From Nitrospiraceae bacterium (lineage in GTDB: Bacteria; Nitrospirota; Thermodesulfovibrionia; Thermodesulfovibrionales; UBA6898): a stretch of 64,000 nucleotides of DNA. Each line of letters opens with the position of its first letter. Within the stretch, counting starts at the first letter, position 1. A model generated the notes under the pieces. That model saw only the letters and a program-made list of their open reading frames with translations. It had not been told where the DNA came from and did not search any database. A program made the translations under genes and the position numbers. Positions 5,624-15,504 of the stretch are shown one piece after another. The stretch spans positions 2,082,223-2,146,222 of the forward strand of contig CP070737.1 of the NCBI GenBank assembly GCA_020347665.1. Reading direction: 5' to 3'.

Positions 5624-8107
5624 CTATATCTTCACGGCTTCAATCTTCACTGCATTCATACGTGATACGCCATTTTCTGATGGAGACATAAGCGCGTTCA
5701 CCCGGCCGTGAGGAAAATGAAGTGACGTAAAGATCGTCCCCTGAGGAAGAGCATCGGAAATCCTGGCCTTGAGATACACTGATCCCTGTCTCGAAGAGAT
5801 TTTGACATGGCTGTTATCGTTAATGCCATATTTTTTTGCATCAACCTCGCTTATCTCTAGAATTGCCTCTGAAACAACCAGATCAAGGGCTTTTGAACGA
5901 GTTGACATGGTGCCGGAATGCTGCAGTACATCCCGTGTAACAAGTGCCAGAGGATAATCATTATCCGGTGATTCAGTCGGTGAATACGAAACAGCATGAA
6001 ATACCCGTTTGGTGTATACCGTATCTTCCTCACGAATCTTTTTATCGATTTCAGCTGTTATGTCTTTAACATCTCTACCAGCGATATCCATTCCCATGGT
6101 CAGTGAAAGGTTTCTCAGGATTTTCCAGTCAGGCACAGCCTGGCCAGGGGCGTTAACAGCCTTGTGAACCTGCTGGATGATACCTTCGGTGTTTATGAAT
6201 GTGCCATCTTTTTCAGCCCAGCTTGAAGCAGGCAGTATAACATGTGCATATTTAGCAGTCGCGGTCATAGCTATATCCAGTACAACGAACAGGTCAAGAG
6301 ATTTGAGTGTCTTGATAATCTTTGCATTATGCGGAAGAGCTGAGACAGCGTCCTCCCCCATCATGATAAGGGCCTTTATGGCTCCCGGCTCATACAGCAT
6401 GCTATATATATTCTTCACATGGAGGTAATCATGGTCAGAGCGAATTCCCATTTTGTACATCCCGTACGTGTTTGCATATTCAGCAGGTATCTGAAGGGCA
6501 TCTCTGTCATCTCCCAGGAGGGTGATCAGGTTCGCTGCCGCAAGGACAGTATCCATGCCTTTTGTATTTTCTGTCGGCGCAAGAGTACATGATATCATTC
6601 TACTTCCTGCACGGGCGATTTCTTGAGCAGCAGACAAGAGATCTTCAGGAGAAATATCAGTAATTGTGGCAACCGTATCCGGGGTGACGTGCTTCAGGCT
6701 GTCTGTAAACTCTGAAAAGCCAGGAGTCTTTGCGATAATCTCCCGGTTGAACAGTTCTCTGTCGATGATCGTTTTCATAATGCCGTTCAGAAATGCAACG
6801 GATGTTCCCTCCCTCATCCTGATATGACGTGAACTGTTTCTGGTCAGTTTCGTTTCGCGGGCATCAGCTACAATGAGATGGGAACCTGTGGTTTTTGCTT
6901 TCAGGATATTCAGTCCGAAGACAGGATGGGAAATACTGAGGTCCGATTCCACAATGAGAATGACGTCTTTTCCCAGCGGGGACTTCAGGTCTATCTTGTG
7001 CATATGCAGACCAAAGGCCTTATTAAGGGCCTCCTGAACTTTCGCATATCCAAAGGCAGCGGAAGAATCGATATTCCGTGACCTGACAACATCCACCATG
7101 AATTTTTTCAGCATGTAATTATCTTCATTCGTGCATCTGGAGGACCCGATCGCGCCTATAAATTCACTGCCGGAGGAATGTATTACCTGTTTAAGCCGAT
7201 CGCTTATATAGGTGAGGGCTTCATCCCATGTTACTGGAATGAATTCCTGGTTTTTCCTCATAAGCGGCGTTTTCAGGCGGTTCTCACTATATACATAATC
7301 AAATCCGAATCGTCCCCTGCCGCAGAGATTCCCTTCGCTTCTTCCATTATCTTCTTTCCCGCGTGAGCGCAGGATTTCTCCTTCTCTCATTCCAAGGGTA
7401 AGCGTGCACCCACATCCGCAGAATGGACAGATCGTATCTTTTTCTTCAAGAAACCACGCGCGTGCCTTGAATTTATACGGCTTGTTCAGGAGTGCCCCCG
7501 TCGGGCAGGCGTCAACACACTGTCCGCAATAATCACACTCAAGAATTTCACCAAAGGCAGGTTGCACGACTGTCGGAAATCCTCTGCCGATAAGTCCCAG
7601 AGCGCCGCGTCTCTGATGCTCATGACAGAGGCGGACGCATTTCCCGCACAGAATGCATCTGTTCGATGTCAGCTCTATGAGTGGTCCTCTCACATCAGGA
7701 GGAGCGGTCTTTCTGTGCCGCAGAAAACGTCCTTCAGGTTTGCCGTACTCGTACGCGAGGTCTTGGAGATCACATTCACCTGCCTTATCGCATACGGGAC
7801 AGTCTAGCGGGTGGTGTACCAGAAGCAGTTCAAGAACCGTCTGACGGGCCTTTCTCAGCTTCGGAGTATCGGTTTTTATGACCATTCCGGGGGCTGCCGG
7901 AGTCGAGCAGGAGGCAAACAGTCTCGGCTGACCTTCCACTTCTACCACACACAATCTGCACCCTCCATAGGGTCGCAGCCTTTTGTCAAAGCAGAGATTG
8001 GGTATCTTGATCCCGTTCCTTTTGGCGGCCTGCAAGATCGTAGAGCCATCTTCCGCAGATACCTGCTTTTCATTTATGGTAAGTGTGATCATGATGTTTT
8101 CCCCCAT
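5624..8107 (-). CDS. NuoG-like iron-sulfur / molybdopterin-fold subunit
   Basis: This 827-residue subunit resembles complex I NuoG and formate dehydrogenase alpha chains. In order it carries a 2Fe-2S domain (C39, C50, C53, C67), a His-Cys3 cluster (H99, C103, C106, C112), two 4Fe-4S ferredoxin clusters (C151-x2-C-x2-C-x3-C and C191-x2-C-x2-C-x3-C), a further CPFCGCGC cluster near 227-234, and a molybdopterin oxidoreductase fold with a dinucleotide-binding C-terminus. Where formate dehydrogenases have the catalytic Cys/SeCys-His, this protein reads SAAFGYAKVQ, so formate chemistry is unlikely. The ATG at 8107 overlaps the preceding stop (TAATG); an ATG at 8092 with GGGGGA upstream is an alternative. 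It ends the sigma-54-controlled operon and probably passes electrons between the NuoF-like partner and an unknown acceptor. Confidence 0.85.
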   Translation of the reverse strand: MGENIMITLTINEKQVSAEDGSTILQAAKRNGIKIPNLCFDKRLRPYGGCRLCVVEVEGQPRLFASCSTPAAPGMVIKTDTPKLRKARQTVLELLLVHHPLDCPVCDKAGECDLQDLAYEYGKPEGRFLRHRKTAPPDVRGPLIELTSNRCILCGKCVRLCHEHQRRGALGLIGRGFPTVVQPAFGEILECDYCGQCVDACPTGALLNKPYKFKARAWFLEEKDTICPFCGCGCTLTLGMREGEILRSRGKEDNGRSEGNLCGRGRFGFDYVYSENRLKTPLMRKNQEFIPVTWDEALTYISDRLKQVIHSSGSEFIGAIGSSRCTNEDNYMLKKFMVDVVRSRNIDSSAAFGYAKVQEALNKAFGLHMHKIDLKSPLGKDVILIVESDLSISHPVFGLNILKAKTTGSHLIVADARETKLTRNSSRHIRMREGTSVAFLNGIMKTIIDRELFNREIIAKTPGFSEFTDSLKHVTPDTVATITDISPEDLLSAAQEIARAGSRMISCTLAPTENTKGMDTVLAAANLITLLGDDRDALQIPAEYANTYGMYKMGIRSDHDYLHVKNIYSMLYEPGAIKALIMMGEDAVSALPHNAKIIKTLKSLDLFVVLDIAMTATAKYAHVILPASSWAEKDGTFINTEGIIQQVHKAVNAPGQAVPDWKILRNLSLTMGMDIAGRDVKDITAEIDKKIREEDTVYTKRVFHAVSYSPTESPDNDYPLALVTRDVLQHSGTMSTRSKALDLVVSEAILEISEVDAKKYGINDNSHVKISSRQGSVYLKARISDALPQGTIFTSLHFPHGRVNALMSPSENGVSRMNAVKIEAVKI

Positions 8108-10011
8108 TATTTTTGCCTTTCAGCCACGGATGATCCGACCAATTCATACGGATCGCCATTATAATGTGCTGGCAGTATCTTTATCGATTCAAATTTGCAT
8201 GCCTCAAAACATGACCTGCACTGAACACAGACTTCCTGAATGATCTTGTGTGGTTGTTTCTTCTCGCCGATTATTGCCTTGGACGGGCAGCCCCGCAAAC
8301 AGGCACCACATCCCTTGCAGAGGTTCTCATCTATCCAGAACGAGCAGAGATTACGGCAGATACCGGCCTTACACCATTGTTCCTTTATATGTGATTCGTA
8401 TTCGTCTCTGAAATATCGAACGGTTGAAAGAACCGGGTTCGGAGCGGTCTGACCCAGGCCGCACAGAGATGTTGCTATAATGTCTGCACTCAGGTCTTCT
8501 AATGTGGCTACATCGCCTTCTTTCCCGCGCCCCTCCGTGATGTCGGTTAACAGATCGAGCATTATCCGTGTCCCGATTCTGCAGGGCGGGCACTTACCGC
8601 AGGATTCATCAGATGTGAACCCCAGAAAGAATTTTGCCACACTGACCATACAGTTATTATCGTCCATGAATACCATGCCTCCGGAACCCATGATTGCTCC
8701 TGTTTTGACGATATCTTCGTAGGTTACCGGTGTGTCAAGTATGGATTCCGGGATGCATCCCCCAGAGGGCCCTCCCATCTGAACAGCCTTGAATTTTCTT
8801 TTCTTCTCCATTCCGCCGCCAATGTCGTAGACTATTGTCCTGAGTGGAATGCCCATCGGGACTTCTATGAGGCCGACATTCTTTATCGCACCGGCAAGAC
8901 AAAAGACTTTCGTCCCCGGACTTTTTTCTGTTCCCACGCTTCTGTACCATTGGACACCCTTCAGGAGTATCGGCGCTATCTGTGCCAGGGTCTCGACATT
9001 GTTGAGTACCGAGGGCTTATCCCATAATCCTTTGTGCGCCGGAAACGGGGGCCGAGGCCGAGGCATACCTCGTTTCCCCTCTATAGAACGCATGAGCGCT
9101 GTTTCTTCACCGCATACAAATGCGCCCGCACCTAAATAGATTTCCAGGTCAAAGTCAAAACCGCTTCCCAGGATATTGTTTCCCAGAAGACCTGCTTCAT
9201 AGCAGGCATCAATGGCCAATTGCAGCCGCTTTACAGCAAGAGGGTATTCAGCCCGAACATAGATAACGCCCTTACTCGAGCCTATTGCTTTTGCACCAAT
9301 GATCATTCCTTCAATGACTGAATGCGGATCTGCCTCCATAACAGACCTGTCCATAAAAGCCCCGGGATCACCTTCATCTCCGTTGCAGAGCATATATTTC
9401 TGGCCAGCCTGTGATTTTGATGCAAATTCCCATTTTAAACCTGTAGGAAATCCTGCGCCTCCTCTACCTCTGATTCCGGAATCTTTCACCACGGTTATGA
9501 TCTCTTCGGCCGTCATATCATGAAGCGCCTTTGCAGCTGCACTGTAGCCGTCTCTGGCGATATATTCATTAATCTTTTCCGGATCAATATATCCGATATT
9601 CCTGAGGACACGAGATTCCTGAAGACGATAAAAAGGCATTTCATCTTTCATGGGCAGAGCAAAGTCAAGTGCCGGCACTCCTTCGAGAATATGCTCCACC
9701 ACAATCTTCCGGATTTTTTCATCATTCAGATCGCAGTACTTGATGGGTTCGCACCCCTGCATCTCAATCGTCGCTATTGGTTCCCTACCGCAGAGCCCTG
9801 CACAGCCGGAAGCAGAGATTGCGACATCTCTAATGTTGTGTTTCTGTATTTCATCAGTGAGAGCCTCCATAACGCTCTCGGCCCCTGCGGTTATGCCACA
9901 GGTCCCCATATGCATGATGACCTTTCCCCTGATGCCACCATCCCCTAGAGCGGAGTTCTCAACATGCTGTTGTTGTATCTTTTTCAGATCTTCTTTTGAC
10001 AGCCGTGGCAT
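8107..10011 (-). CDS. NuoF-like NAD(P)H/FMN-binding subunit with C-terminal ferredoxin domain
   Basis: This 634-residue protein has the HydB/HndC/HoxF layout. It begins with a thioredoxin-like 2Fe-2S domain (C38, C70, C74; the family often lacks one of the four cysteines). The FMN/NADH domain follows, with RGRGGAGFPTGLKW, CNGDEGDPGAF and GAGAFVCGEETALM, then an SLBB segment and the N3-type 4Fe-4S motif SCGKCPPCRIGT. Two C-terminal 4Fe-4S ferredoxin motifs (CKGCGACLRGC and CVQCRSCFEAC) complete the chain. The C-terminal ferredoxin distinguishes it from the complex I NuoF at 19.1 kb. It lies between the receiver/NuoE fusion and the NuoG-like gene, so the three form a diaphorase-like NAD(P)H:acceptor module. 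The physiological partner (hydrogenase, ferredoxin or other) is not in view. Confidence 0.9.
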   Translation of the reverse strand: MPRLSKEDLKKIQQQHVENSALGDGGIRGKVIMHMGTCGITAGAESVMEALTDEIQKHNIRDVAISASGCAGLCGREPIATIEMQGCEPIKYCDLNDEKIRKIVVEHILEGVPALDFALPMKDEMPFYRLQESRVLRNIGYIDPEKINEYIARDGYSAAAKALHDMTAEEIITVVKDSGIRGRGGAGFPTGLKWEFASKSQAGQKYMLCNGDEGDPGAFMDRSVMEADPHSVIEGMIIGAKAIGSSKGVIYVRAEYPLAVKRLQLAIDACYEAGLLGNNILGSGFDFDLEIYLGAGAFVCGEETALMRSIEGKRGMPRPRPPFPAHKGLWDKPSVLNNVETLAQIAPILLKGVQWYRSVGTEKSPGTKVFCLAGAIKNVGLIEVPMGIPLRTIVYDIGGGMEKKRKFKAVQMGGPSGGCIPESILDTPVTYEDIVKTGAIMGSGGMVFMDDNNCMVSVAKFFLGFTSDESCGKCPPCRIGTRIMLDLLTDITEGRGKEGDVATLEDLSADIIATSLCGLGQTAPNPVLSTVRYFRDEYESHIKEQWCKAGICRNLCSFWIDENLCKGCGACLRGCPSKAIIGEKKQPHKIIQEVCVQCRSCFEACKFESIKILPAHYNGDPYELVGSSVAERQK

Positions 10012-10012
10012 G

Positions 10013-10975
10013 TTACCCCTCCTTTCCCTCTACACTGATTATTTCCTCGACGCCTCCCATGGTCACTGTCTCTTCTGCCGGCAAGGATTCGGTCTCCAGG
10101 GGGAAAGGGGAATATTTGTTTAGTGCGCCTATTACATTCTTCGGGGTGAGTGAACTGTGGGTATCATGATCTATTATCATGACGGGTGCAAGCGCGCAGC
10201 AGCCGAGGCACCGAACAGCTTCAAGTGAAAACACCCTGTCTTCGGTTGTCTCTCCAACATCTATTTTAAGTACATTCTTGATCTTGTTTAAAACTGAATC
10301 AATACCTTTTACGTAACAGGCGGTACCGAGGCAGACATTAATAGTATGGTCACCGCGGGGCTTCATCGTAAAGAAGGAATAGAAAGATACAATACTGTGG
10401 ATCTCTGCCGGGGGAATATGCAGTCCTCGTGCAATACGTTTCTGCACGAACGGAGGCAGATACCCCACGATCTCCTGACAGCGTTGCAGCACGGGAATTG
10501 AACTGCCGGGCTTATCTTTATAGGAATAAATTATCCGATCAATCTCGGCGAGCATGGATGGGGGGAATGCTTCAGCGACAGTATCTTTTTCGGGTTTCTT
10601 GTCGACCACCCACTGCTCAGCCCTTTTGGTTACGTCAAGCAGTACCGCCGGTGTGAACGGCTTTGGTACATAGTCGATTATCCCTATTTCAAGTGCATCT
10701 TTCATCGTTTCCTGTGACGGATACCCGGTTATGATGACGATTCCCAGTGAAGGTTTTGAATTCTTGATCCATCTGATCAGGGTAATACCATCCACTTCCG
10801 GCATCTTAAGATCGGTAAAGACGAGGTCATAGTCATTATGCTCAATCTTCATTATTGCTTCTCTTCCCCCGAGCGCACCGTCAATGGAATACCCCACACC
10901 CTTCAAGATTCTTTCAGCACTTTTTATTACGACTGCTTCGTCATCAACAATGAGAATGTTCGGTCCCTCTGCCAT
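10013..10975 (-). CDS. Response-regulator receiver fused to NuoE-like 2Fe-2S subunit
   Basis: This 320-residue fusion begins with a complete receiver domain (about 5-122; acidic pocket D11/D12, phosphoacceptor D55, T83, K105 in VPKPF). A linker leads to a NuoE/HndA-type thioredoxin-like 2Fe-2S domain (about 143-290) with all four cluster cysteines, C215-x4-C220 and C256-x3-C260. NuoE normally relays electrons from FMN in NuoF and has no receiver. The gene is directly followed by the NuoF-like subunit (1-nt gap), so this is the NuoE component of that complex with a phosphorylatable module attached. Phosphorylation by the upstream kinase could change electron transfer or assembly; this is inference. 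Confidence 0.88.
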   Translation of the reverse strand: MAEGPNILIVDDEAVVIKSAERILKGVGYSIDGALGGREAIMKIEHNDYDLVFTDLKMPEVDGITLIRWIKNSKPSLGIVIITGYPSQETMKDALEIGIIDYVPKPFTPAVLLDVTKRAEQWVVDKKPEKDTVAEAFPPSMLAEIDRIIYSYKDKPGSSIPVLQRCQEIVGYLPPFVQKRIARGLHIPPAEIHSIVSFYSFFTMKPRGDHTINVCLGTACYVKGIDSVLNKIKNVLKIDVGETTEDRVFSLEAVRCLGCCALAPVMIIDHDTHSSLTPKNVIGALNKYSPFPLETESLPAEETVTMGGVEEIISVEGKEG

Positions 10976-10996: not shown

Positions 10997-11764
10997 TTAA
11001 AGGGTTAACGGTTGAATTCGCGCAAGCCAGAGAAGCCACCCTTCACTCAAGTTGTCCTGAACAAGGGCACTGACTGCTGTATTTGCCTGGTGGTTCAGTT
11101 CAACGACCGTGCCGTTCATTGGAGAGACGAGATCTTCTGTCTGACCTTCGCCCGACAGTACTTTTCCAAATGCCTCTCCTGCAGCAACCAGTTCGAGCTC
11201 TTCCGGAAGATCTATGTACATAAGCTGTCCACTCAGGAGCCAGTAACGGATATCACATCCGATTTCCCACAGGCCGTTTCTTGTTGGCCGCGCCCAGGTA
11301 CCTTCTTTATAGAAGATAACGGGATTTTCAGCGTCTCTGAGAGATACGATCTCATTTCTGAATTCATCGATGAATGCCTTTCTCAGTATCCATCCCCGTT
11401 TATCAAAAACCCGTTTTGCGACATTCATCATAAACTCGGGCGTAAAAGGCTTTTCTATATATTCAAAAGCTCCAAGCTTTACCGATTCCTTTGCATCTTC
11501 AAGATTTGGGTAGCCAGTAATGAGCACTACATCCAGTTCAGGCTGTACGCTTTTTGACTCCTGCAAAACCGTGATACCGCTTATATCAGGCAGTCTTATA
11601 TCAGATATCAGCAGGTCGAACGCTTCGCTCGACACCTTCTTAATCGCGTCCTCGCCCTTTTCAGCAGTGATGATCGAATATCCATCTGCACCGAGGATCC
11701 TTTTGCAGCTCAGTGTGACGACAGGGTCATCATCGAGGACTAATATTTTTCCTTTCTTTTCCAT
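10997..11764 (-). CDS. Receiver domain fused to a glycine-cleavage H-protein-like domain lacking the lipoyl lysine
   Basis: This 255-residue protein has a receiver domain at 5-122 (D55 phosphoacceptor in LLISDIRLPD, T83, K105 in IEKPF). Residues about 158-252 resemble GcvH: IRYWLLSGQLMYIDLPEE, AAGEAFGKV, LVSPMNGTVVELN and EGWLLWL match the barrel-sandwich hybrid of the H protein. The loop that should present the lipoylated lysine reads LSGEGQTED, with no lysine, so classical lipoylation is not possible. It is the first gene behind the -24/-12 promoter, with GGAGGTC ahead of its ATG, and lies 21 nt from the receiver/NuoE gene. No glycine cleavage genes are nearby, so a regulatory or scaffold role is more likely than glycine metabolism. 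Confidence 0.82.
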   Translation of the reverse strand: MEKKGKILVLDDDPVVTLSCKRILGADGYSIITAEKGEDAIKKVSSEAFDLLISDIRLPDISGITVLQESKSVQPELDVVLITGYPNLEDAKESVKLGAFEYIEKPFTPEFMMNVAKRVFDKRGWILRKAFIDEFRNEIVSLRDAENPVIFYKEGTWARPTRNGLWEIGCDIRYWLLSGQLMYIDLPEELELVAAGEAFGKVLSGEGQTEDLVSPMNGTVVELNHQANTAVSALVQDNLSEGWLLWLARIQPLTL

Positions 11765-11815: not shown

Positions 11816-11831
11816 TGCAAAAACGATGCCG
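11816..11831 (-). promoter_or_regulatory. Sigma-54 (-24/-12) promoter of the receiver/redox operon
   Basis: The minus strand reads CGGCATCGTTTTTGCA, with GG and GC exactly 12 nt apart as in the TGGCACG-N4-TTGCA consensus. It would start transcription near 11805, about 40 nt before the ATG at 11764, which has a good ribosome-binding site. An NtrC-type activator gene lies immediately upstream. Confidence 0.72.
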
Positions 11832-12131: not shown

Positions 12132-13547
12132 TCAGACTGATTTCGGCATGGTTTTGCGGATATTATACTTTTTCAGGAGTGCGTGGAAGTTCGGTCTCTG
12201 CATCTGCACATCTGCGGCTGCCTTTGATATGTTCCAGCGGTTTCTCTTGAGTGCCTCCATAAGAAAGGTCTTCTCAACCTCTTCAACGGATTTATCTCGC
12301 AGAGTCTTCTTCATTTCTTTGAGTGCGTGTATGGTCATCGGGACTTCTCCCAGGGGTTCTTCAATGAGTGCTGCAAAATGTTCAGGCCTCACATTTCTTC
12401 CCTGGCACATGATAACGGCTCGTTGAATCGTGTTTTCCAGCTGTCTGACGTTTCCCGGCCAGTCGAAACTTACGAGTATCCTCATTGCGTCAGCGGTAAT
12501 ATGGGTGACCTTTTTCTCGATTTCACTGCTGTACTTCTGAAGGAAATGATATGCAAGATGCGGGATATCTTCTTTCCGTTCGCGTAACGCAGGTATGTGA
12601 ATAGGGAAAATATTTAGCCGGTAGAAGAAATCTTCCCTGAATTCACCTTTTCTGGTCATCTCCTGCAGATTCTTGTTTGTTGCTGAGATGAATCTGATAT
12701 CAACCCGGCGCGATGTTTTCTCGCCGACAGGCCGAAATTCACGCTCCTGTAGAACTCTAAGCAATTTGGCCTGTGTCGTAACGTCCAGATTTCCTATTTC
12801 ATCGAAAAAGATCGTGCCGTTGTTCGCCATATCGATGAGACCTTTTTTCTTTTCAGCAGCTCCCGTAAAGGCGCCTTTTGCGTGTCCGAATAATTCTGAT
12901 TCAATGAGGGTATTCGGGATGGTAACACAATCAACCGTCACAAACGGCTGGTCTCTCCTGGAACTGTTATAATGTATCGCTTTGGCTATCAATTCTTTGC
13001 CGGTACCGCTTTCTCCTGTCAGCAGAACCGTGCTGCCGGTATTTGCAACCCTGGCAATCAGATAAAAAACTTTCTGTATAGACTGCGATACCCCTATAAT
13101 ATTGTCCAGCTTGTAGTGCTGAGAGAAATGCTCTCTTACGGATACATTTTCATTTAGCAGGTGTTTCCGTTCAAGTGCCCTGGAAACAACGGTCAATAAA
13201 TCGTCTGGTGCTATCGGTTTCTCGATATAATCAAAGGCTTCAAGCTTCATCGAATCCACGGCTGTCCGCGTTGAACCAAATCCCGTCAGAATGATTGCCT
13301 CGGTCTCGACCCATGTCTCTTTAATTCTCCTGAGTAGTTCAATGCCATCCATCCCCGGCATTTTCAGATCAATCACAACAAGGTCAAACACTCGTTGAGA
13401 GAGTATTTTGAGTGCATCCTTGCCATTCTGAGCCGTTTCGACGGTATATCCTTCAGGCTCGAGCACCTTCCTGCAACTGGTCCTTATTATGTCCTCATCA
13501 TCGATTATCAGTATTCTGGCTTTGCTCACGGCATCTTCCTTTGTCAT
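12132..13547 (-). CDS. Sigma-54-dependent NtrC-family response regulator
   Basis: This 471-residue activator has three domains: receiver (D60 in LVVIDLKMPG), AAA+ (Walker A GESGTGKE, the sigma-54 contact loop GAFTGA, Walker B in GTIFFDEIG) and a C-terminal Fis-type helix-turn-helix (NISKAAADVQMQRPNFH). The ATG at 13547 follows the lone receiver gene by one base; an in-frame start further upstream would run into that gene. Its position directly upstream of a -24/-12 promoter makes it the obvious activator of the receiver/NuoEFG-like operon. Phosphorylation by the adjacent histidine kinase is expected from the gene order. Confidence 0.93.
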   Translation of the reverse strand: MTKEDAVSKARILIIDDEDIIRTSCRKVLEPEGYTVETAQNGKDALKILSQRVFDLVVIDLKMPGMDGIELLRRIKETWVETEAIILTGFGSTRTAVDSMKLEAFDYIEKPIAPDDLLTVVSRALERKHLLNENVSVREHFSQHYKLDNIIGVSQSIQKVFYLIARVANTGSTVLLTGESGTGKELIAKAIHYNSSRRDQPFVTVDCVTIPNTLIESELFGHAKGAFTGAAEKKKGLIDMANNGTIFFDEIGNLDVTTQAKLLRVLQEREFRPVGEKTSRRVDIRFISATNKNLQEMTRKGEFREDFFYRLNIFPIHIPALRERKEDIPHLAYHFLQKYSSEIEKKVTHITADAMRILVSFDWPGNVRQLENTIQRAVIMCQGRNVRPEHFAALIEEPLGEVPMTIHALKEMKKTLRDKSVEEVEKTFLMEALKRNRWNISKAAADVQMQRPNFHALLKKYNIRKTMPKSV

Positions 13548-13548
13548 C

Positions 13549-13926
13549 CTACTGATCGCCCTTTCTGTTTCCCAATGCTTTAGAGACTGAGGAAATGAGT
13601 GCATCAGGAGAGAAGGGCTTCTCTATGTAGTCAAAAGCACCCAGCTGTACAGATTTGAGCGCATTTTCAACGGATTGATATCCTGTCATAATGATTACCT
13701 TCGTTTCTGGAAATTTATCCCTGACCTGTTTTAAAACTTCTATACCATCCATATCCGGCATCTTTATATCTGTCAGAACAAGATCGAATTTTTCTTCGTC
13801 TATCATTCTCAAGCCGTCCAGACTGCTCTGAGTCAGCCGCACTTCGTATCCGAGAGGAGAGAGGGTACGACTACAACTTCTTCTTACAATATCCTCATCG
13901 TCGATCACAAGTATTTTTCCTGTCAT
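13549..13926 (-). CDS. Single-domain response regulator (CheY-like)
   Basis: This is a 125-residue stand-alone receiver: acidic pair D9/D10, phosphoacceptor aspartate in FDLVLTDIKMPD, conserved Thr in IIMTGY and Lys in YIEKPF. It has no output domain. It lies 12 nt after the histidine kinase and 1 nt before the NtrC-type activator. With the receivers in the activator and the two fusion proteins, the cluster holds four closely similar receivers beside one kinase. It may act as a phosphate shuttle or sink; the sequence does not decide. Confidence 0.9.
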   Translation of the reverse strand: MTGKILVIDDEDIVRRSCSRTLSPLGYEVRLTQSSLDGLRMIDEEKFDLVLTDIKMPDMDGIEVLKQVRDKFPETKVIIMTGYQSVENALKSVQLGAFDYIEKPFSPDALISSVSKALGNRKGDQ

Positions 13927-13938
13927 AATCCTGTTTCC

Positions 13939-15504
13939 TTAATTGACGGGTAGTCTTATGAAAAAACTCGTTCCTTCCCCGAGTTCTGTTTTCAGAAGAA
14001 TTTCTCCGCCGTGCTCCTGGATTATGCCGTGACTGACAGCCAGACCCAGGCCGGTTCCTTTACCAACCGGTTTTGTTGTGAAAAATGGTTCAAAAAGCTT
14101 TGGAATATCTTCATCTCTGATACCTGGACCGGTGTCACTGAATTCTATTTCAACCAGGTGCTCCTTCTGTTCGTGTATCGATCTCGTTACTATTTTCATT
14201 GTTCCCACTTTCTCCATAGCGTCTGTGGCGTTCATGATCATGTTGAGAAATACCTGCTGCAGTTGAGATGCGTCTGCCGAGAGGAGGGGCAGGTGGTCCG
14301 CAAAGTCCGTGATAAATTGAATGTCAAAAAAATCAGCCTTGTTTCGTACAATATTTAATGTGCTTGTCACGACGTCATTAATATTTACAGAGGTTTTTTC
14401 TGAAGAAGATGCACGGGCAAAACCGAGGAGTCCCTTTATGATTGCCGAACAGCGGTTTGCCTGCTCAATAATAACATTGATATCCTCAAGCTCCTGTGAA
14501 CCGGATGGGAATTTTTCCCGTAATAGATGCCCAAAGGTCACAATTCCGGTCAAAGGACTGTTTATTTCATGAGCCACACCCGCAGCCATCCTTCCGAGAG
14601 AAGCCAGCTTTTCAGAATGGATCATCTGTGAATGAGCCTCTTTAATCTGTTCAGCCTCGTCCTGAACCTTTTTCTCAAGATCATGTCCCCAATCGAGCAG
14701 TTCTTTTTTTGCCTTTTTGAGATCGTATGTCATCGCATTGAAGGCCTGTGCGAGCGCACCGATCTCATCCTGCGTTTCAATCTTTAAACGGGAGTCAAGG
14801 TCTCCTCCTGCAACTTTCTCCATGCCCTCAGTCAGGAGGCTGACCGGTCTCGAGACAAGTCGTCGCAGTATTGAGAAAAGACTGATTGATATGACAAAAA
14901 GGAATCCCGCAACATATAATGCCATTGCGATACGCTGATTCCTGATGTCCGCATCAAGTTGAGCGAGAGATAAGTCAGCCTCTATCAGTCCCAGTACGCG
15001 CTGGTCTTCATGATGGATATGACAATCTGCTGTATAGCAGGCCGGTTCGTTATATATCGGCTTAACAATGTTCAACATTCTCGCCTGTCCAATTCTACTG
15101 ATCGAAGAACTCGGCGTGTCTTTCGGATGTTCCGTAACCGAATGACAACTGGTACAGATCGGCGAATTCTGGTCAACCATGGTGCCGATGTCTTCCTGGT
15201 TGGATGAGTATGTAATTTTGCCTTTTGAGTTGAACACGCGGACGTTTTTTACACCTTCTGCCGAACCAATTGATTCTATGGTTTCCTGTATAATGCTCCC
15301 CTGTGCCGTAAGCATACCGTAATGAGTGCTTCGATTTACCAAGTCTGAAAACGAATGTCCAAAATTTATGGAATTATTGACAAATGTTTTCTCCAGGTGA
15401 GTAAAAAGAAAATAACCGAACACAATGCTCCCGAAAACCATAAGTATGCCTATGGCAATAAAAAGCTTTGTGGACAATGAGTTTAAATAGTGCCTGAAAT
15501 GCAT
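13939..15504 (-). CDS. Membrane histidine kinase with periplasmic haem-c motifs
   Basis: This 521-residue sensor kinase has TM1 at about 13-33, a periplasmic domain at about 35-190, TM2 at about 192-211, a HAMP domain, a coiled coil, HisKA with phospho-acceptor H312 in [12 protein letters not shown], and an HATPase domain (N, G1, G2 boxes present). The periplasmic domain contains CTSCH (117-121), a canonical CxxCH haem-binding motif, and CYTADCH (156-162), an atypical Cx4CH with further histidines behind it. It probably senses redox state or a gas ligand through covalently bound haem. The start has GAGAGGG as ribosome-binding site. It heads the minus-strand cluster and is divergent from nuoA. 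Confidence 0.88.

Follow-up and report, generated by a model that had tools for sequence, protein, structure and literature searches.

The locus described here raises the question of what a response-regulator receiver could accomplish when it is joined to a domain that resembles the H protein of the glycine-cleavage system (GcvH) without its lipoylated lysine, and when the gene for this fusion stands beside genes for NADH-linked redox enzymes. The window that we analyzed is a stretch of 64,000 nucleotides (nt) of the Nitrospiraceae contig CP070737.1. We refer to the fusion as RR-GcvH; its gene and the parts of its product are as follows.

10997..11764, minus strand: RR-GcvH-like fusion protein of 255 amino acids (an open reading frame of the window)
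11423..11746, minus strand: receiver, residues 7-114, with phospho-acceptor Asp55 (Pfam Response_reg; conserved residues)
11024..11314, minus strand: H-protein-like barrel-sandwich domain, residues 151-247 (Pfam GCV_H, PDB profile and fold match)
11129..11158, minus strand: loop that carries the lipoyl lysine in GcvH, residues 203-212, with Glu206 at the lysine column (alignments)

The first-pass annotation had placed this gene first in a redox operon, and the gene arrangement bears this out. There are 367 nt of non-coding DNA 5' of RR-GcvH, while only 21 nt separate it from a gene for a receiver-fused NuoE (receiver-NuoE), which is followed after 1 nt by a NuoF gene that itself overlaps a NuoG-like gene by 1 nt.

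10013..10975, minus strand: receiver fused to a NuoE-like [2Fe-2S] subunit, 320 amino acids (Pfam)
8107..10011, minus strand: NuoF-like subunit of HydB-type architecture, 634 amino acids (best PDB match HydB, 7q4v_B)
5624..8107, minus strand: NuoG/FdhA-like molybdopterin subunit, 827 amino acids, catalytic Cys lost (best PDB match FdsA, 6tg9_A)
7046..7051, minus strand: codons of Gly353-Tyr354, where formate dehydrogenase has its catalytic Cys-His (alignment)

In PDB searches, the NuoF-like subunit scores 724 bits with HydB of a bifurcating hydrogenase (7q4v_B) vs 383 bits with its counterpart in complex I (2fug_1). Judging by its sequence, the NuoG-like subunit is catalytically dead: Gly353 occupies the catalytic Cys position in 72 of 72 rows, followed by Tyr354 in 68 of them. 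We also considered an active formate dehydrogenase operon; this is ruled out by the Cys-to-Gly change, as the Cys/Sec-His signature is absent. The combination of a HydB-type NuoF with extra iron-sulfur domains, a NuoE and a NuoG-like subunit with an inactive FdhF domain is the one found in the Stn transhydrogenase StnABC (PMC10482914, PMC7483475) and in HydBC of electron-bifurcating hydrogenases. In StnC, the catalytically inactive FdhF domain is described as structurally needed, for assembly (PMC10482914). Unlike StnC (PMC10482914, PMC7483475), the host's NuoG-like subunit has no fused GltD/NfnB part, and a Pfam search found no Pyr_redox match in its 827 residues. A further difference from StnABC and HydBC is that receivers are fused to subunits here. 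Given the HydB-like NuoF, the inactive NuoG/FdhA and the presence of Nfn-like genes in relatives, the complex resembles a Stn/HydBC-type module, and electron bifurcation would be a possible activity.

RR-GcvH accompanies this module regularly. The receiver-NuoE gene lies within 500 bp downstream of it in at least 82 of the 100 loci with enough flanking sequence, a count that is a floor, since 9 of the 18 misses have receiver-NuoE 2.0-2.5 kb downstream, and receiver-NuoE is also present in L084, L085, L136 and L137. Where the flank suffices, NuoF is linked in 81 of 85 loci and the NuoG-like gene in 72 of 76. At the level of genomes, receiver-NuoE occurs in 60 of 62 that have RR-GcvH (counted by hand) vs 15 of 55 that do not (Fisher p 2.8e-16, with kinship among genomes ignored). 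One of the two exceptions, G004, is 100% complete and has the kinase, the regulator and RR-GcvH, with no receiver-NuoE at E 1e-30; in the other, G243, the contig ends 1.6 kb away from RR-GcvH. In G174 and G227, RR-GcvH is encoded apart from the receiver-NuoE operon. Because 15 of 55 genomes have receiver-NuoE without RR-GcvH, the latter is not an obligate subunit, and the linkage counts together with the exceptions G004, G174 and G227 make it a frequent, but not obligate, partner of the operon. By gene order, RR-GcvH usually stands at the head of an NADH redox operon.

Our leading hypothesis, to which we would give an even chance, is that RR-GcvH serves the soluble Stn/HydBC-like NADH flavin/iron-sulfur complex that its operon encodes as a docking or assembly subunit, switched by phosphorylation. 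A docking or switch role for the H-like domain, as the first-pass annotation had suggested, would fit the gene linkage and the intact receiver. There is a possible precedent in Mycobacterium tuberculosis: Rv3143, an orphan response regulator, binds NuoD, and a modulating effect on complex I has been proposed for it (PMC9274095). Like RR-GcvH, Rv3143 is a response regulator encoded beside nuo genes for which action on an NADH dehydrogenase by contact is proposed. However, Rv3143 has no output domain (PMC9274095), whereas RR-GcvH has its H-like domain, and in our locus the neighboring NuoE is itself fused to a receiver.

The same precedent (PMC9274095) could be taken further, in that RR-GcvH, encoded divergently next door, might dock on respiratory complex I as Rv3143 docks on its NuoD, and not on the operon's own complex. 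Of 70 loci with sufficient flanking sequence, 28 have complex I genes in the same stretch, and in L057 RR-GcvH directly follows the nuoEFG genes of complex I. However, the other 42 of these 70 loci have no complex I genes nearby, while a separate NuoE/F/G set adjoins RR-GcvH in most loci. We consider docking on complex I unlikely.

If RR-GcvH is switched by phosphorylation, its receiver should be intact, and the genes upstream might supply the phosphate. Pfam detects Response_reg at residues 7-114 (E 5.6e-25), which agrees with the receiver fusion proposed at first pass, and the receiver has the signature of response regulators, namely the Asp acceptor, an acidic pair, Thr/Ser and Lys. D11, D12, D13, D55 and K105 are present in 109 of 109 RR-GcvH rows, and T83 in 108. 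The receiver of receiver-NuoE is conserved as well (all of its 100 rows have D55 and K105). In this set of 109 RR-GcvH rows, the host stretch is counted twice (also as L003), two collections are mixed and some genomes are duplicated; when the last 150 residues are compared, 104 others are distinct. Rows with less than 80% query coverage were removed from residue counts. Our row sets were A1, with 38 of 62 sequences, A2, with 71 rows (the host stretch and 70 of 73, with L096, L118 and L085 left out), and A3, with all 76 and the host stretch. Upstream of RR-GcvH lie the following features.

13939..15504, minus strand: membrane histidine kinase whose sensor part has a CxxCH (heme-c-type) motif (Pfam HAMP/HisKA/HATPase)
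13549..13926, minus strand: single-domain response regulator (Pfam)
12132..13604, minus strand: sigma-54-activating NtrC-type response regulator (Pfam)
11816..11831, minus strand: sigma-54-type -24/-12 promoter-like site, 51 nt ahead of the start codon of RR-GcvH (family-wide match)

The kinase is likely a heme-c redox sensor; one CxxCH occurs in 42 of 45 homologue rows. Of 70 RR-GcvH loci, 36 have a homologous kinase gene upstream in the same orientation, and the remaining 34 show none there. We also observed a CxxxxCH motif in the sensor part of the kinase at 13939-15504. The open reading frames of the single-domain and NtrC-type regulators overlap by 56 nt (13549-13604), and the start codon of the latter is probably further downstream.

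A sigma-54-type site lies at most 100 bp upstream of RR-GcvH in 33 of 108 loci vs 0.25% of shuffles, where it is important to consider that the family-wide pattern was fixed after the matches of the first scan were known and that the shuffles preserve base composition only. Where a sigma-54 activator is encoded upstream, 11 of 13 loci have such a site, vs 17 of 80 where there is no such activator (Fisher p 1.8e-5, kinship ignored). Because a scan over the whole 64,000-nt window gave counts at chance (32 vs 29.3), the weight of the site comes from its position and its recurrence across the family only. A scan for generic sigma-70 promoters and terminators gave counts no higher than in shuffles.

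Under our leading hypothesis, RR-GcvH would be a response regulator with an apo H-protein fold as its output domain. The heme-c-bearing kinase would sense a periplasmic redox cue and phosphorylate the NtrC-type regulator, which would start the operon from the sigma-54 promoter. The same kinase would phosphorylate the receivers on the H-like domain and on NuoE, and phosphorylation would shift the seating of RR-GcvH and receiver-NuoE on the complex, so that electron flow is gated. Our computations establish the domains, the fold of the model, the lost lysine, the intact receivers, the gene order, the promoter pattern and, for about half of the loci, an upstream kinase, whereas the identity of the acting kinase, docking of the H-like domain on the complex and an effect of phosphorylation on its activity are inferred. 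The broader proposal, that a two-component system works directly on an electron-bifurcating-type NADH complex whose two receiver-fused subunits, one of them apo-H, gate electron flow by phosphorylation, with sigma-54 control alongside, is more tentative, and we consider it somewhat less likely than not.

The first-pass annotation had matched residues 158-252 to the H protein, and Pfam confirms the match with slightly different boundaries (GCV_H, PF01597, residues 151-247, E 6.1e-9, 36.3 bits vs a cut-off of 22.2). When the PDB was searched with a profile of 38 RR-GcvH family rows, all 14 matches up to E 10 were glycine-cleavage H proteins, the best at E 2.8e-8. A structure model of full-length RR-GcvH has pTM 0.48 with linker pLDDT below 50, so it does not fix the domain arrangement, and the receiver took up both lists of fold matches; we therefore predicted the H-like domain alone (AlphaFold2, pLDDT 84.4, pTM 0.80). 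Foldseek ranks 1-22 are then GcvH or GcvH-like throughout, and VIA ranks 1-19 are all GcvH, with Z 8.7-10.7 over about 100 aligned residues at rmsd 2.5-3.3; the next VIA row falls to Z 6.0. The suggestion that the H-protein fold is kept thus holds for the model, and the failure to superpose on GcvH that had been named as grounds for rejecting it did not occur. A generic lipoyl or biotinyl domain was also considered, and is ruled out by VIA, where those folds reach at most Z 6.0 vs Z 8.7-10.7 for the H proteins.

The RR-GcvH domain shares the fold and overall sequence pattern of GcvH (PF01597). It differs in its position C-terminal to a receiver and in having its own invariant set of residues: 16 columns are invariant across 38 RR-GcvH sequences with identity down to 41%, and the invariant Trp, Glu, Asp and Arg of the H-like domain are absent from two canonical GcvH. 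In NqrA and RnfC, a lipoyl-like barrel-sandwich fold without the lysine is found beside a NuoF-type protein or fold. A single very weak fold match points this way (NqrA, 8acy_A, E 0.94, Foldseek rank 50), which we regard as a lead only.

RR-GcvH could instead be a signaling hub or phosphate sink, in which the domain merely stabilizes or dimerizes a receiver that competes with the NtrC-type regulator and receiver-NuoE for phosphate. Pairwise identity among the locus's receivers is 33-49%, G174 has a stand-alone copy of RR-GcvH, and the absence of receiver-NuoE from G004 leaves kinase, regulator and RR-GcvH together there. However, a phosphate sink does not need such a domain, and its strong conservation, including the residues missing from the two canonical GcvH, suggests a specific surface. 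We judge the sink to be improbable, to the same degree as docking on complex I.

With regard to the cofactor, loops of the type ES(V/T)KA surround the lipoylated lysine of GcvH. The host genome's canonical GcvH (L001) and another canonical GcvH (L066) both keep this lysine, in a motif that reads ESTKAT. The corresponding loop of RR-GcvH reads LSGEGQTED, as originally reported, with Glu206 aligned to the lysine of the host's canonical GcvH. Among 62 sampled genomes with one RR-GcvH each, lysine occurs at column 206 in none, at 207 in none and at 208 in 10; in the 109-row set, the counts are 1 at column 206, 0 at 207, 18 at 208 and 1 at 210. The PDB profile alignment sets the lipoyl lysine against Gly207 instead, and in that register lysine is absent from 109 of 109 rows. 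Gly207 is kept in 106 of 109 rows. The first-pass annotation had held that homologues with a lysine in this loop would count against it. Taken literally, such homologues exist (20 of 109 have a lysine within residues 203-212), but in 19 of them it is elsewhere than at the lipoyl column, and the claimed loss of the cofactor site stands. On these alignments, the lysine variants are side-chain variation in a loop with a near-constant Gly207. Because lysine is missing at the lipoyl column across the family and Gly207 is kept, we conclude that the host's RR-GcvH family has swapped the carrier loop for a Gly-rich one.

An apo H protein might also serve as a decoy or regulator of lipoate metabolism, binding lipoate ligase, GcvT, GcvP or the L protein in a phosphorylation-dependent manner. 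The fold matches do include H proteins solved with lipoate ligase A and with T protein, and the host genome has a canonical GcvH with its lysine. However, the Gly-rich loop replaces the motif that surrounds the lysine, and in most loci the neighbors of RR-GcvH are NADH redox genes, so we consider this slightly less probable again than either of the preceding alternatives. That RR-GcvH is still a modified carrier by way of another loop lysine is highly improbable: Lys208, two columns past the lipoyl column, is present in 18 of 109 rows, but the host protein is among the 89 with no lysine in residues 203-212, and shifting the lysine of lipoyl domains by one residue reportedly abolishes lipoylation.

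Response regulators act mostly on transcription or second messengers. The locus suggests that bacterial signaling may also act directly on an electron-transfer enzyme, and a receiver with an apo-H fold that heads a redox operon beside receiver-NuoE is a concrete case in which to test whether phosphorylation controls a soluble NADH complex that transfers electrons. Searches of CC-licensed PMC papers turned up no description of a receiver-GcvH or receiver-NuoE fusion.

The H-protein fold without its carrier lysine is strongly conserved across one class of the little-studied Nitrospirota. We sampled 295 genomes, drawn evenly from the phylum, and counted matches with E 7e-29 or better as close relatives. 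Of 117 genomes from the host's class, 62 carry RR-GcvH, vs 0 of 178 Nitrospirota genomes outside the class (counted by hand); most other matches in the 295 genomes are canonical GcvH-like by E-value and open-frame length. Among the 80 of 114 relatives listed from a contig scan, two carry the label Deferribacteres; the other sources are Nitrospirota-type or, in the case of BMS3 bacteria, unplaced. In genome G126 (C4:19839-20012), RR-GcvH is reduced to a fragment with an internal stop, next to an intact receiver-NuoE. This apparent gene loss indicates that RR-GcvH can be lost.

The operon itself varies among relatives. The N-terminal ferredoxin-like part of the NuoF-like subunit (8107-10011) is a separate gene of 127 amino acids in several of them, e.g., L103 13844-14227. 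NfnA/NfnB-like genes sit between RR-GcvH and receiver-NuoE in L103 (10468-12751), L102, L116, L133, L135 and L136; the host genome encodes an NfnB-like protein elsewhere that is 60% identical to that of L103. Genes for a stand-alone HATPase_c domain and a PHP domain adjoin the operon in some relatives (L103 8832-9509, L060 5838-6401 and L157 2937-3695), and in L064 two receiver-NuoE-like genes follow RR-GcvH in tandem.
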